Source of the DNA: Janthinobacterium sp. 67
GTDB taxonomy: Bacteria; Pseudomonadota; Gammaproteobacteria; Burkholderiales; Burkholderiaceae_D
NCBI RefSeq assembly: GCF_002797895.1
Contig: NZ_PGES01000001.1
Coordinates: forward strand, 4,464,001 to 4,528,000
Direction of reading: 5' to 3'
DNA: 64,000 nt
In this document: in pieces, positions 12,181-62,461 of the stretch
Numbering within the stretch: the stretch's first letter is position 1
Layout of the letters: the number at the start of each line of letters is the position of its first letter
Translations under genes and position numbers: made by a program
Notes under the pieces: model-generated
Told to the model about the DNA's origin: nothing
Database searches by the model: none
What the model saw: only the letters and a program-made list of their open reading frames with translations

Positions 12181-12249
12181 ATGTGTTGTTACATGGCAAT
12201 GTATGGCGAACAAGCTGGCGCACCGGCCTTGACAATGTTAAAATCCCCC

Positions 12250-12312
12250 GTCCGAGGAGCGTTGCGACGAAGAAATTCGCCAGGCTCGGAATATCCTGCA
12301 ACCGCGCTCACG
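12250..12312 (+). promoter_or_regulatory. S-adenosylhomocysteine (SAH) riboswitch controlling ahcY
   Basis: The conserved SAH riboswitch core is recognisable: CCGAGGAGCGTTGCGAC, then CCAGGCTCGG, then GCAACCGCGCTCA. P1 forms between TCCGAG (12251-12256) and CTCGGA (12285-12290). GAGCG (12257-12261) and TTGC (12262-12265) pair with CGCTC (12305-12309) and GCAA (12298-12301), giving the long-range helix and pseudoknot of the class. It sits just before the ahcY ribosome-binding site. The class is known to switch on ahcY when SAH accumulates. Confidence 0.93.
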
Positions 12313-12340
12313 TACCTTTTTCAACTGAAAGGAGGGCGTG

Positions 12341-56404: not shown

Positions 56405-59400
56405 ATGAAAGCACTGCTCGATCTATTCAAGCAAGTACAGACCAACGAGACCTTCGATGCAATCAAGATCGGTCTCGCTTCGCCTGAGAAAATCCGTTCG
56501 TGGTCCTACGGCGAAGTCAAAAAGCCGGAAACCATCAACTACCGTACCTTCAAGCCTGAGCGCGACGGCCTGTTCTGCGCCAAGATCTTTGGCCCGATCA
56601 AGGATTACGAATGCCTGTGCGGCAAGTACAAGCGCCTGAAACACCGCGGCGTGATCTGCGAAAAGTGCGGCGTCGAAGTCACCCTGGCCAAAGTGCGCCG
56701 CGAGCGCATGGGCCACATCGAGCTGGCCTCGCCGACCGCGCACATCTGGTTCCTGAAGTCCTTGCCGTCGCGTCTGGGCATGGTCCTGGACATGACCCTG
56801 CGGGACATCGAACGCGTGCTGTACTTTGAAGCATACGTCGTGACCGATCCAGGCATGACCCCGCTGAAAAAGTGCCAGATCATGTCGGAAGACGACTACG
56901 CCGCCAAGTACGAAGAGTACGGCGACGACTTCACCGCCTTCATGGGCGCCGAAGGTATCCGTGAACTGCTGCGCTCGATCGACATCCACCGCGATGCCGA
57001 AACCCTGCGCGTGGAACTGAAGGAATCGAAATCCGAAGCCAAGATCAAGAAATACGCGAAGCGCCTGAAAGTGCTGGAAGCGTTCCAACGTTCGGGCATC
57101 AAGCCTGACTGGATGATCATGGAAGTGCTGCCAGTGCTGCCGCCGGAACTGCGTCCGCTGGTACCGCTGGATGGCGGCCGTTTCGCGACCTCGGATCTGA
57201 ACGATCTGTATCGCCGCGTCATCAACCGTAACAACCGTCTGAAACGCCTGATGGAGCTGCGCGCTCCAGAGATCATCACGCGCAACGAAAAGCGCATGCT
57301 GCAAGAAGCGGTCGATTCGCTGCTGGACAACGGCCGTCGCGGCAAAGCGATGACCGGCGCCAACAAGCGTCCGCTGAAATCGCTGGCAGAGATGATCAAG
57401 GGCAAGGGCGGCCGTTTCCGTCAAAACTTGCTGGGCAAACGCGTCGATTACTCCGGTCGTTCGGTCATCGTCGTGGGCCCGCAATTGAAACTGCATCAGT
57501 GCGGCTTGCCGAAACTGATGGCGCTGGAACTGTTCAAGCCATTCATTTTCAATAAACTGGAACTGATGGGTCTGGCTACCACGATCAAGGCCGCCAAAAA
57601 GCTGGTCGAGATCCAGGAGCCGGTCGTGTGGGACATCCTGGAAGACGTGATCCGTGAACATCCGATCATGTTGAACCGCGCACCTACGCTGCACCGTCTG
57701 GGTATTCAGGCGTTCGAGCCAGTCCTGATTGAAGGCAAGGCCATCCAACTGCACCCGCTCGTCTGCGCCGCATTCAACGCCGACTTTGACGGTGACCAAA
57801 TGGCGGTCCACGTTCCTCTGTCGATCGAAGCGCAGATGGAAGCACGCACCCTGATGCTGGCATCGAACAACATCCTGTTCCCATCGAACGGCGAACCGTC
57901 GATCGTGCCGTCGCAGGATATCGTGCTCGGTCTGTACTACGCGACCCGCGAAGCGATCAATGCGAAGAACGAAGGGATGATGTTCCCTGACGTGTCGGAA
58001 GTGATCCGCGCCTACGACAACAAGGAAGTCGAACTGACGACCCGCGTCACCGTGCGTATTACCGAATACCCGAAAAACGCCGAAACGGGCGAATTCGAGA
58101 AGACGGTTACCCGCTACGAAACGACGATCGGCCGTGCGATCCTGTCGGAAATTCTGCCGAAAGGCCTGCCGTTCTCCGTCTTGAACCGCGCGCTGAAAAA
58201 GAAAGAAATTTCCAAGCTGATCAACACGTCGTTCCGCAAGTGCGGCCTGCGCGCCACCGTGGTGTTCGCAGACAAACTGATGCAATCGGGTTTCCGCCTG
58301 GCGACACGCGCCGGTATCTCGATCTGCGTCGACGACATGCTGGTACCGCCTCAAAAAGTCACCTTGATCGCGACGGCCGAATCGGAAGTCAAGCAGATCG
58401 AACAGCAATACGCTTCGGGTCTCGTGACCGCCGGCGAGCGTTACAACAAGGTCGTCGATATCTGGGGCAAGACCTCCGATGAAGTCGGCAAGGCCATGAT
58501 GGACCAGCTGAAAGTCGAAGACGTGATCCGCCGCGACGGTACGCAGTCGACGCAAGAATCGTTCAACGCCATTTACATGATGGCCGACTCCGGTGCGCGT
58601 GGTTCCGCAGCCCAGATTCGCCAGTTGGCCGGTATGCGTGGTCTGATGGCCAAACCGGATGGTTCGATTATCGAAACGCCGATTACCGCGAACTTCCGCG
58701 AAGGTCTGAACGTTTTGCAGTACTTCATTTCGACCCACGGCGCTCGTAAAGGTCTGGCCGATACGGCGCTGAAAACGGCAAACTCGGGTTACCTGACCCG
58801 TCGTCTGGTCGACGTGACGCAAGACTTGGTGGTGATCGAGGACGATTGCGGCACCATGAACGGTACCGTCATGAAGGCCCTGGTTGAAGGTGGTGAAGTC
58901 ATCGAACCGTTGCGCGACCGTATCCTCGGCCGCGTGGTGGTGCATGACGTCGTCAATCCTGAAACCCAGGAAACCCTGTATGACGCCGGCACCCTGATGG
59001 ACGAAGACATGGTCGAAGAGATCGAGCGTCTGTCCATCGATGAAGTCAAGGTTCGTACGCCACTGACTTGCGACACGCGCTTCGGCCTGTGCGCCAAGTG
59101 CTATGGCCGCGACCTGGGCCGCGGCATGCTGGTCAACGCCGGCGAAGCCGTCGGTGTGGTGGCAGCGCAGTCGATTGGTGAGCCTGGTACCCAGCTGACC
59201 ATGCGTACGTTCCACATTGGTGGTGCGGCATCGCGTGCGGCAGTGGCATCGTCGGTGGAAGCGAAATCGAACGGCACCATCCGCTTCACGGCAACCATGC
59301 GTTACGTGACGAACGGCAAGGGCGCGCAAATCGTCATTTCCCGTTCCGGCGAAGTGCTGATCACCGACGACCATGGCCGTGAGCGTGAGCGTCATAAAGT

Positions 59401-60646
59401 ACCGTACGGCGCGACCCTGATCGTCAAGGACGGCATGGTCATCAAGGCCGGTACGGCCCTGGCAACGTGGGATCCGCTGACCCGTCCGATCATTACCGAA
59501 TACGCCGGTCAAGTGCGTTTCGAGAACGTCGAAGAAGGCGTCACCGTAGCCCGTCAGGTCGACGAAGTGACCGGTCTGTCCACCCTGGTGGCGATCGATG
59601 CGAAACGTCGCGGTTCGCTGACCAAGACCCTGCGTCCGCAAGTCAAGCTGATCAACGACGCGAACGAAGAAGTCAAGATCGCCGGCACCGAACACTCGGT
59701 GGCGATCGGCTTCCAGGTCGGCGCGCTGATCATGGTCAAGGACGGTCAACAGGTATCGGTGGGTGAAGTGCTGGCACGTATCCCGACCGAATCGCAAAAA
59801 ACGCGCGATATTACCGGTGGTCTGCCACGCGTTGCGGAACTGTTCGAAGCCCGTTCCCCGAAAGATGCCGGTATGCTGGCGGAAGTCACGGGTACGGTTG
59901 CGTTCGGTAAAGAAACCAAGGGCAAGCAGCGTCTGGAAATCACGGACATGGACGGCAACAAGCACGAGTTCCTGATTACCAAGGACAAGCAAGTGCTGGT
60001 GCATGACGGCCAAGTCGTGAACAAGGGCGAGATGATCGTGGACGGCCCGGCCGATCCGCAAGACATCCTGCGCCTGCTGGGTATCGAAGCGCTGGCACGT
60101 TACATCGTTGACGAAGTGCAAGACGTGTACCGTCTGCAAGGCGTGAAGATCAATGACAAGCACATCGAAGTGATCGTGCGTCAGATGCTGCGCCGTGTTC
60201 AGATCGTCAATGCCGGCGACACCAACTACATCGTTGGCGAGCAGGTAGAGCGTTCGGAACTGCTGGACGAGAACGATCGCGTGACGTCGGAGAACAAGAT
60301 CCCTGCGACCTACGAGAACGTCTTGCTGGGTATTACCAAGGCTTCGCTGTCGACCGATTCGTTCATCTCGGCCGCATCGTTCCAGGAAACCACCCGCGTG
60401 CTGACCGAAGCGGCGATCATGGGCAAGCGCGATGGTCTGCGCGGCCTGAAAGAGAACGTCATCGTCGGCCGCCTGATTCCTGGCGGTACGGGCCTGGCCT
60501 TCCACCGCGCACGCAAAGAGAAAGAAGCGTGGGAAGTGGAAGAGCGTCAAGCACTGCTGCTGGCCGAGAAAGCCTCGATGGCTGGCGAAGCTGCCGAAGC
60601 GCTGCAGGACATCGAAACTCAGCAACACCACGGCGACGAAGCGTAA
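56405..60646 (+). CDS. rpoC: DNA-directed RNA polymerase subunit beta'
   Basis: RpoC is the catalytic beta' subunit. The product is 1413 residues. The N-terminal zinc site is Cys70, Cys72, Cys85 and Cys88. The catalytic NADFDGD lies at 458-464 with Asp460/462/464, the same numbering as E. coli. A second cysteine cluster begins at [19 protein letters not shown]. The C-terminus ends [15 protein letters not shown]...HHGDEA. Divergent copies of the last 27 codons and of its terminator recur three times downstream. Confidence 0.99.
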
Positions 60647-60667
60647 TCTGCGCTGCTAGCTGACAAG

Positions 60668-60694
60668 AACGGCACCTTCGGGTGCCGTTTTTTT
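60668..60694 (+). terminator. Rho-independent terminator of rpoC (copy 1 of 4)
   Basis: AACGGCACC pairs with GGTGCCGTT around a TTCG tetraloop, followed by a seven-T run. It starts 22 nt after the rpoC stop. The same element recurs at exact 186-bp steps. Confidence 0.95.
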
Positions 60695-60880
60695 ATGTAC
60701 AAGTGGAAGCTGCACAGGAAATGAAAGCACTGTCGAACCTCGCTGCCGGCCGATAAAGCCACCCTGGCCGGTGAAGCCACCGAAGTTTTGCTGGCTATCG
60801 AAGCCCGGCGACACCACGGCTACGAAGCGTAATCTGCGCTGCCAGCTGACAAGAACGGCACCTTCGGGTGCCGTTTTTTT
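60695..60880 (+). repeat. 186-bp tandem unit 1: divergent rpoC 3'-end copy plus terminator
   Basis: The unit starts after the first terminator. It contains a 27-codon relative of the rpoC C-terminus (ADKATLAGEATEVLL, AIEARRHHGYEA) with its own TAA at 60830, followed by the same terminator (60854-60880). There is no start codon or open frame leading into the copy, so it is not a gene. It is followed directly by unit 2. Confidence 0.95.
60854..60880 (+). terminator. Rho-independent terminator, copy 2 of 4
   Basis: Same hairpin and T run as the rpoC terminator, at the end of tandem unit 1. Confidence 0.9.
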
Positions 60881-61066
60881 ATGTACAAGTGGAAGCTGCA
60901 CAGGAAATGAAAGCACTGTCGAACCTCGCTGCCGGTCGATAAAACCACCCTGGCCGGTGAAGCCACCGAAGTTTTGCTGGCTATCGAAGCCCGGCGACAC
61001 CACGGCGACGAAGCGTAATCTGCGCTGCCAGCTGACAAGAACGGCACCTTCGGGTGCCGTTTTTTT
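60881..61066 (+). repeat. 186-bp tandem unit 2
   Basis: Differs from unit 1 at about three positions by eye (CCGGTCG for CCGGCCG, AAAACC for AAAGCC, GGCGAC for GGCTAC). The stop codon copy is at 61016. Confidence 0.95.
61040..61066 (+). terminator. Rho-independent terminator, copy 3 of 4
   Basis: Same hairpin and T run, at the end of tandem unit 2. Confidence 0.9.
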
Positions 61067-61252
61067 ATGTACAAGTGGAAGCTGCACAGGAAATGAAAGC
61101 ACTGTCGAACCTCGCTGCCGGCCGATAAAACCTCCCTGGCCGGTGAAGCCACCGAAGTTTTGCTGGCTATCGAGACCCGGCAACACCACGGCGACGAAGC
61201 GTAATCTGCGCTGCTAGCTGACAAGAACGGCACCTTCGGGTGCCGTTTTTTT
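61067..61252 (+). repeat. 186-bp tandem unit 3
   Basis: Differs from unit 2 at about six positions by eye. From CAACACCACGGCGAC through the terminator its end is identical to the true rpoC end, including CTGCTAGCTG where units 1 and 2 read CTGCCAGCTG. The stop codon copy is at 61202. Confidence 0.95.
61226..61252 (+). terminator. Rho-independent terminator, copy 4 of 4
   Basis: Same hairpin and T run, at the end of tandem unit 3. Sequence after it (TGCCTGCGTG...) is unrelated to the unit. Confidence 0.9.
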
Positions 61253-61828
61253 ATGCCTGCGTGCATTAACTCGTGCATCCATAAAAACAGCCTGAAATGC
61301 GGAAGTACCTGACGGCTCATTTATATCCGCCAGTATTACTATCGTCAATTGTTATTGATATGATGCATTGAAAAGAAACGTGAGCATCCGATGTCGCTTA
61401 TTCATGCGTGGTATGTTTTATTGACAGTATGCGTCAATGGAGCGCAAGTCGGATATTAAAAATCTAGCTGAGCCACGCTGTTATTAATGGCTGAGATTGC
61501 GAATCAAATTGATCTATCCACATTCATCCCGGTTGCTTAATACATCAAATATCGCCGAGTTACTCTTAAGTCGAGCATGCTTGAATTGATGGGCTAAACC
61601 AGGCTGATGCTGATGCCGGCCGAGATTTCTACCCGACGTACCGAGGAATCTGAAGTGAGCGCTCACAAGGATGGCGGATTGCCAGCTAGCCGCCACTGTG
61701 CCAGTGTGCCTTGCCGCGCAAGGGCCCGCCCAATTGCTGGCAACTGCGCATGACAGCGTTGTTGCGGCGTCACGCCCTATTGCCTGCGCCACGCCAGTTT
61801 CCAGTTCATTCATGCTAAGATTTGGCGC
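61253..61828. other. AT-richer intergenic region behind the rpoC array, no gene seen
   Basis: A 576-bp region. By eye 61253-61600 has clearly lower GC than the rest of the window, and the remainder is average. A minus-strand frame from 62140 to 61514 is mostly the shadow of the next gene. No transposase, tRNA or attachment site is recognised. The promoter of the downstream regulator should lie near 61800. Confidence 0.5.
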
Positions 61829-62461
61829 ATGATTGCCCAAGCCCTGTTTACTCCAGCCCAGCAAAAACTGCTGGGTTTGCTCTTTGTCCGCGTGAATGAA
61901 GGCTTTCATTTGAACGAGATCATGCGCCTGACGGGATTGGGCAGCGCGTCGGCGCAGCGGGAACTGCGTCGGCTGCATGACTCTGGCCTGATCACTTCCG
62001 AGCGTATCGGCAACGTGCGGCGCTTCTGGCCCAACAAGGAAAGCCTCGTGTATCCCGAGTTGAGCGGACTGGTGCAGAAAACCTTTGGCATCGTCGGCGT
62101 GCTCAGCATGACCCTGGCGCCCTTGCGTGATCAGCTCCACCTGGCCTTCGTGTCTGGCGCCACGGCGAAGGGGCAGGACATGCCTGGCAGCGCCATCGAT
62201 TTGCTGCTGGTGGGCGAAGAAGCCAATTATGGTGATTTGTTGACCGGATTGGCCCCGGCCGAGCGAACCTTAAGGCGTAAAATCAATCCCAACCTATATA
62301 CGCTGGCCGATTATCGCCGGCGACTGCGTGAAGGCCAGCCATTTCTGCTGCAGGTATTACAGCAGCCGAAGCTGTTTGTTATTGGCGATGAAGCGCTATT
62401 GCAGGCGCTGACATTGCCGGATTCTCCAATGCAGACGAATGACATGCCATCTGTATTCTAA
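61829..62461 (+). CDS. Winged-helix DNA-binding protein with degenerate nucleotidyltransferase-like domain
   Basis: A 210-residue protein. Residues about 8-70 form an ArsR/MarR-like winged helix (LNEIMRLTGLGSASAQREL, then GLITSERIGNVRRFWPN). Residues about 103-190 resemble the minimal nucleotidyltransferase fold (HLAFVSGATAKGQDMPGSAI, then DLLLVGEE), but the usual GS and SDID metal motifs read GA (110-111) and SAID (121-124), so one catalytic Asp is missing. It is probably a transcription regulator whose second domain senses or binds something instead of catalysing. Target unknown. An HDOD gene follows 75 bp downstream. Confidence 0.8.
   Translation: MIAQALFTPAQQKLLGLLFVRVNEGFHLNEIMRLTGLGSASAQRELRRLHDSGLITSERIGNVRRFWPNKESLVYPELSGLVQKTFGIVGVLSMTLAPLRDQLHLAFVSGATAKGQDMPGSAIDLLLVGEEANYGDLLTGLAPAERTLRRKINPNLYTLADYRRRLREGQPFLLQVLQQPKLFVIGDEALLQALTLPDSPMQTNDMPSVF

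Follow-up and report, generated by a model that had tools for sequence, protein, structure and literature searches.

A tandem array of rpoC 3' ends and intrinsic terminators behind rpoC in Janthinobacterium

The window analyzed here, a 64-kb stretch of the Janthinobacterium sp. 67 genome, contains rpoC, which encodes the beta' subunit of RNA polymerase, followed directly on its 3' side by three near-identical 186-bp units in tandem, each ending in a copy of the 3' end of that gene. The positions of rpoC, the units, and the next gene downstream are given in Table 1. Tandem Repeats Finder reported the array as positions 60611-61255 with a period of 186, 3.5 copies, 96% matches and a score of 1199; the four other rows returned for the window scored just 52-76. 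Direct repeats within the array were spaced by 186 and 186 bases, and its TAA codons start at positions 60644, 60830, 61016, and 61202, as a sequence-only reading of this DNA had claimed for three 186-bp units. Any two units have 179-182 of 186 bases in common (182, 179, and 181 for the three pairs). When the genome itself was searched at E <= 0.001, exactly four places matched and there was no fifth.

Table 1. Features of the rpoC 3' region in the window.
Feature	Position	Strand	Basis
rpoC (RNA polymerase beta' subunit), gene whose 3' end is repeated	56405..60646	+	1413-aa ORF; Pfam RNA_pol_Rpb1 domains 1-5
Last ~50 rpoC codons, the stretch contained in the ancestral ~213-bp unit (approximate start)	60496..60646	+	Unit profile, most of 39 genomes
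T0, rpoC's own UUCG-capped terminator hairpin and T run	60665..60692	+	Fold -19 kcal/mol, z -6.0; inverted repeat
Unit 1: spacer, T0, degenerate rpoC tail, stop	60647..60832	+	Repeat analysis
Unit 2: spacer, second terminator, degenerate rpoC tail, stop	60833..61018	+	Repeat analysis
Unit 3: spacer, third terminator, degenerate rpoC tail, stop	61019..61204	+	End within 76-base identity to rpoC end
Final spacer and fourth terminator (hairpin 61223-61250)	61205..61252	+	Direct repeats; fold
Next downstream gene, probable winged-helix protein	61829..62461	+	Pfam below cut-offs; PADLOC PDC-M05A

By sequence (fold plus T run), an intrinsic terminator is present in all four copies. The four hairpins are of one sequence, with 12 pairs, a UUCG loop and a T run, each with a predicted fold of -19 kcal/mol and a z of -6.0, and the four-terminator barrier described in the sequence-only reading is thus present anatomically. 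A consensus terminator scan did not report these hairpins, probably because the T run was counted into the stem. At the end of unit 3, 76 bases (25 through the stop and 51 beyond it) are identical to those of the true rpoC end, where about 70 bp had been claimed; units 1 and 2 have identity tracts of 21 and 32 bases. Across 27 codons, 16, 15, and 19 residues of units 1, 2, and 3 are identical to those of rpoC, close to the earlier figure of about 17/27, but the homology runs beyond these 27 codons: in this genome the whole 138-base unit body can be aligned with the rpoC tail, at 72% identity and with two 1-base insertions. The copied stretch in relatives is ~150 bases (50 codons), starting from about -151 of the rpoC end, and in most of 39 genomes searched with a unit profile the match to rpoC began at about -151 and extended through the terminator. 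The period in relatives is ~213 bp, made up of ~50 codons, the stop, a ~20-base spacer, the terminator, and ~14 further bases. Since the copied part in relatives yields this longer period, the 186-bp form is a shortened version.

The product of the gene downstream of the array matched the PADLOC candidate-defence family PDC-M05A with an E-value of 2.3e-64, with Pfam matches below cut-offs. In 35 of 39 genomes (33 of 37 from the genus and both of the two from another genus) this gene is no more than 4 kb from rpoC, and its presence near rpoC in 33 of 37 genus genomes makes it look more like a resident than a variable defence gene. Other insertions and matches were noted in the course of this work. 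A convergent gene for an FAD monooxygenase lies behind rpoC in G025 (L074:2485-3930), and similar DNA was found in G002, G007, G028, G029, and G063; the product scored below the cut-offs of the NCBIfam models it matched, for rifampin monooxygenase and other monooxygenases (380 bits against 800 for rif_monoox), and its position adjoining rpoB and rpoC is curious. G153, from another genus of the family, has a 520-bp copy of its rpoC end and terminator at locus L112, 99% identical and ~4 kb downstream, with genes for a 737-aa protein that had no Pfam or PADLOC match and a TraB/PrgY/GumN-family protein between. Judged from its sequence, this copy appears to have arisen recently at the rpoC 3' end, by duplication or insertion. 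Second rpoC matches were present on other contigs of G132 and G070, and window positions 12248-12316 matched the SAH riboswitch at 54.7 bits.

The distribution of the array was examined in 40 genomes of the genus, one per species, of which 38 yielded an rpoC end (G013 and G026 had no rpoC match). Copy number varies among relatives, with 0 to 3 extra units within the genus. Full units were found in 11 of 38 genomes, with 1-3 extra copies and periods of 186-234 bp, and decayed remnants in four; neither was found in the remaining 23, one of which, G034 (58 rpoC codons on the contig), rests on self-comparison only. Self-comparison of the 38 rpoC ends detected a repeat in 12, and a profile search of 37 genus genomes added remnants in G018, G061, and G002, the last of these marginal (E 0.0081). 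Three extra units are present in G000, G030, G036, and G035 (the last unit of G035 having no UUCG terminator of its own), two in G004 (the second cut short), G024, and G062 (a pair unlike each other), and one each in G020, G033, G009, and G010, while the copy in G016 is decayed. Janthinobacterium records with the diverged-tail signature were GW456P, SUN073, J. lividum HSC-65S10, and FT68W. A core group of 26 genomes was defined from an rpoBC tree, support within the core being low; rpoBC divergence in this group is 1.0-4.2% with a mean of 2.5%. The scatter of arrays among core species only 1.0-4.2% apart implies that losses, gains, or exchange have been frequent: G014 has no unit and G033 has one at 1.1% rpoBC divergence, and G035 has three units and G063 none at 1.0%.

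Outside the genus, no rpoC-end repeat was found in 40 genomes from other genera of the family, searched from 120 bases before to 1500 bases after the stop with periods of 60-699 and a score threshold of 22. These control genomes, all with downstream room, were hand-picked among 77 other-genus genomes that had an rpoC match. G102 and G149, from another genus, had no repeat at the rpoC end; G128 was left out of the other-genus analysis and G153 was treated as a separate case. An assembly artefact is unlikely, as 11 of 38 genus genomes, from independent species and in several cases assembled as a single contig, bear at least one full unit, each with arrays of its own unit sequence. Among the 14 genus genomes in two or fewer contigs, seven have a full unit and six have two or more like units, against none with two or more like units in 24 more fragmented genomes, so that fragmented assemblies may collapse such arrays. 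A search for a habit of repeating gene ends in 464 kb (twenty 20-kb stretches of the same genome plus the window) found one other array with a period of at least 100, a 249-bp tandem repeat of 3.2 copies and 81% matches at L162:12469-13271.

Comparison of the units within and between genomes indicated that they do not evolve independently. With the truncated units G004 unit 2 and G035 unit 3 and the decayed G016 unit excluded here and from the body comparisons below, unit bodies within a genome are on average 95.1% identical (12 pairs, lowest 71.8%), compared to 68.5% between genomes (178 pairs, highest 92.7%); the two G062 units, which are unlike each other, are the exception. The rpoC tails of the nine core species with units are 96.6% identical. 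The spacer and terminator alleles of the units also track the rpoC end of their host: across 11 genomes the mean similarity score was 0.876, against 0.683 when hosts were shuffled, and in the nine core genomes alone it was 0.913 against 0.853, with none of 2000 reassignments reaching the observed value in either test, although these shuffles ignore relatedness. This result supports the earlier proposal that an old duplication was amplified to near identity while exchanging sequence with the rpoC end.

Divergence between units and their own rpoC is unevenly distributed along the copied segment. With G009 and G010 excluded from the divergence and codon counts, it averages 18-22% in the upstream part (0-5% in G035 and G030, 31-54% in G000 and G024) and 32-37% at -80 to -36, then falls to 4.1% over the final 36 coding bases, with 3.0% for the spacer and 2.9% for the terminator. 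Low divergence that runs from coding sequence into the terminator without a step is better explained by conversion or crossover tracts than by selection acting on the hairpin only. The protein endings follow the same pattern. In G024, G033, and G036 the IES allele of rpoC is found again in the units, six of six keeping IES and five of six having the same ending; in hosts with IETQQ the units end in IETRQ or IETQQ-like forms, with IEARR in units 1 and 2 of the window. The units of G009 and G010 have the ending of their own host species or a near form of it. The rpoC set of this allele comparison and of the codon comparison below was without G015, G022, G027, G001, G003, G021, G149, and G102. 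On this sequence evidence, concerted evolution appears to take in an essential gene, rpoC.

The copied tails do not vary as coding sequence would. Variable columns among the units of nine species are spread over codon positions as 26, 18, and 22 (chi-square p 0.48), compared to 4, 1, and 19 for rpoC itself (28 sequences, with G009, G010, and G012 also left out), and the units of G000, G062, G030, and G033 contain stops or shifted frames. The absence of codon-position bias among units rules against a coding paralogue of the RpoC tail since the species split. Pooled substitutions between units and their own rpoC number 73, 62, and 95 by position, and the mild third-position excess can be supplied by synonymous changes in rpoC together with the founding block described below. 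The suggestion that the copy had diverged while still coding consequently fails for the period since the species split, but it may hold for the founding block, which is in frame, with its differences distributed 4, 3, and 7 by codon position.

This block is apparent when the consensus unit of the nine core species is aligned with the consensus rpoC. There are 0 differences in 28 positions from -138 to -110, 2 in 30 from -110 to -80, 14 in 44 from -80 to -36, a stretch that keeps the frame and has no stop, and 0 in 33 from -36 to -3. The 14/44 in the block compared to 2/91 elsewhere may mark mosaic boundaries, but flanks converted by rpoC would give the same picture. Nine amino-acid changes are present across the tail, and of the many conservative changes claimed for it, E/D, S/T, and M/L do score as positive in BLOSUM62, but two of the nine score zero and four are negative. 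The 44-base block is common to units of the nine core species, and it is less diverged than the upstream part in 29 of 36 between-species pairs of units, indicating that it probably differed from rpoC before these species split. The upstream part in G035 and G030 is 0-5% from their own rpoC and the block is ~29-43% away. The units of G009 and G010 lack the block, being 0-5% from their own rpoC in this region, and may represent a separate duplication or one overwritten by rpoC. Only three columns are fixed differently between all nine units and all 28 rpoC sequences.

Traces of an older terminator type were also found. Distal remnant terminators with a GGGAGAAAT loop are present in five core genomes (G004, G035, G016, G061, and G018), and the same loop type occurs behind rpoC in G009, G010, and G011; in G004, G035, G016, and G061 the remnant terminator is followed by an apparent start of another unit. 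Though the sequences are few, these remnants suggest that the array predates the UUCG terminator now common in the core. In four genomes the stems of the distal remnants have a mean identity of 90%, compared to 79% and 83% for their flanks; one pair of the G061 remnant is changed on both sides from C-G to T-A, and one pair of the G018 remnant is broken. The better-kept stems may be a hint of selection on the extra terminators.

Taken together, the data favor an old duplication of ~213 bp that is maintained by recombination, expanding, shrinking, being converted and decaying, and that is mostly neutral; we assign this reading a probability of roughly 0.56. A tandem duplication at the rpoC 3' end would have arisen in the Janthinobacterium lineage, after which homologous recombination among the repeats, and between the repeats and the rpoC 3' end, would alter copy number and, to judge from the divergence pattern, keep the last ~36 coding bases, the spacer, and the terminator alike. 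A crossover within the common ~80-base end would spare the rpoC stop and terminator, and because rpoC would be left intact, expansion, contraction, and even total loss of the array would be tolerated. The copied coding stretch would now drift free of coding constraint. The outcome is predicted to be 0-3 extra intrinsic terminators in series after the rpoBC operon, with an effect on read-through that is probably small and additive, making the serial terminators a tolerated and perhaps mildly useful by-product. Independent young duplications could also give ends that track their hosts, but the common block argues otherwise. Under this reading, even a gene that is essential and universally conserved can have its 3' end become part of a tandem array, the two evolving concertedly across a genus, and relics of the array preserve fossils of another terminator type. 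Close species with 0-3 extra terminators also provide a natural series for measuring serial termination behind rpoBC.

A stronger form of this model, which we regard as possible but doubtful, treats the array and rpoC as one recombining family, a satellite tethered to the gene, in which copy number sets the leakiness of the rpoBC end. The rpoC tail alleles, the spacer, and the terminator switch from the GGGAGAAAT loop to UUCG would have spread through the array, and changes could also pass back into rpoC, while the 44-base block, kept out of rpoC, would mark the array apart from the gene. If this is true, copy number would act as a tunable and self-repairing terminator.

In the main functional alternative, possible but on balance doubtful, the array would instead be kept by selection as a serial terminator halting rpoBC read-through into the co-directional gene downstream. 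The four identical strong hairpins with T runs, the co-directional orientation of the downstream gene in this genome, and the better conservation of distal remnant stems than of their flanks are all in line with such a role. Full units are present in none of the six core genomes with the convergent FAD monooxygenase gene, compared to 9 of 20 others (Fisher p 0.06), or 1 of 6 compared to 12 of 20 with remnants included (p 0.16), in tests that ignore phylogeny. Against this, 13 of 26 core genomes have no array or remnant, and all 13 have the downstream gene within 4 kb. Divergence is nearly as low in the final ~36 coding bases as in the hairpin (4.1% compared to 2.9%), which conversion explains and selection on the terminator does not, and a stem pair is broken in two internal terminators, T2 of G062 and T1 of G024.

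The diverged 44-base block of the founder requires more than the duplication and recombination model alone. From its sequence, it could have arisen by steady drift followed by overwriting of the flanks by rpoC, or as a captured patch. The proposal of a xenologous tail, in which the founder unit or the block came from another rpoC or another sequence by recombination, is a variant of origin compatible with the other readings, and we consider it improbable. The block's shape is as a captured patch would leave it: its 44 bases hold 14 differences, keep the frame, contain no stop, and are flanked by sequence that matches rpoC fully or almost so. Its presence in the units of nine core species is in accord with this. 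However, no donor was recovered. None of 80 rpoC ends (38 from the genus, 2 near-genus, and 40 from other genera of the family) had the diverged tail. Among the order's genomes, 398 besides the source genome, in part the same as those that supplied these ends, had no match at E <= 1e-10, the single match among the 399 genomes being the source genome via its own rpoC end. An exact-pattern scan of the contig collection genome_contigs gave eight matches, comprising four known arrays and four sequences without rpoC similarity, and no donor; the scan missed arrays that fit the pattern (for example, those of G024, G030, and G035), and thus the collection lacks or hides some genomes.

There is little to favor the release of the units between terminators as discrete RNAs. 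Every unit is flanked by two terminators, in a layout that recalls the small RNAs of the E. coli rrn dual terminators, as the available part of PMC8144298 presents them, and the RtT RNA of tyrT, and the 44-base block is kept better than the part upstream of it. However, no Rfam family matched within the array at the gathering score, a promoter scan of the array gave no promoter-like site, and the unit bodies are just 68.5% identical between species.

Descent of the array from an integrative element that targets and restores the rpoC 3' end is very unlikely. The G153 copy of the rpoC end with its two intervening genes and the inserted gene behind rpoC in six core genomes are the kinds of arrangement this would predict, but plasmids and phages gave no match, the exact signature pattern was absent from viral contigs, and the units are too short for a recombinase gene; a mobile element was rejected on the basis of these searches. 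That the units encode a small RpoC-tail-like protein modulating RNA polymerase assembly is scarcely credible: the unit of G035 and G004 is a single 54-codon open frame with an ATG right after the T run, but the hairpin arm and T run occupy the bases before this ATG, leaving no Shine-Dalgarno-like sequence ahead of it, and the interrupted frames and absent codon-position bias described above also oppose this role.

A literature search covering titles and the beginnings of abstracts, with subscription journals mostly outside its scope, found no description of an rpoC-tail array. Several known systems share part of its organization. Tandem-repeat (VNTR-like) loci evolve by unequal recombination and conversion. 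As in such loci, copy number varies among close species and units are homogenized within a genome, but here the repeat and an essential gene have an end in common, and that gene is itself included in the homogenization.

The rrn operons of E. coli also carry serial terminators after a very active operon, with the small RNAs rrA, rrB, and rrF between the dual terminators. In its available part, PMC8144298 calls the significance of this duality unclear and cites termination at rrnB of 87% at T1 and 100% at T2. The same part of the source deals with two terminators and does not describe them as copies of a gene end, and it reports the intervening RNA as conserved across genera, whereas the unit bodies at rpoC differ greatly between species.

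By analogy, the closest known layout is the 178-bp repeat of E. coli tyrT (RtT RNA, Rfam RF00391; tpr), likewise a tandem array directly behind a gene with units that hold its 3' end; background on this repeat is given in the available parts of PMC8250186 and PMC2965389. The MG1655 tyrT locus was used as a yardstick, and the repeats there are spaced by 178 and 178 bases and extend 19 bases into tyrV; RtT matches recur at the 178-bp spacing, with a fourth between tyrT and tyrV. The rpoC units do not match the RtT family at the Rfam gathering score, with RtT found at tyrT as a positive control. The host gene of the tyrT array is a tRNA, whereas here it is the protein gene rpoC, and the tyrT units contain an annotated RNA (rttR) and a small gene (tpr) where the rpoC units contain an intrinsic terminator and a degenerate coding tail. 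The likeness between the two arrays is one of layout, and no relation in sequence is claimed.
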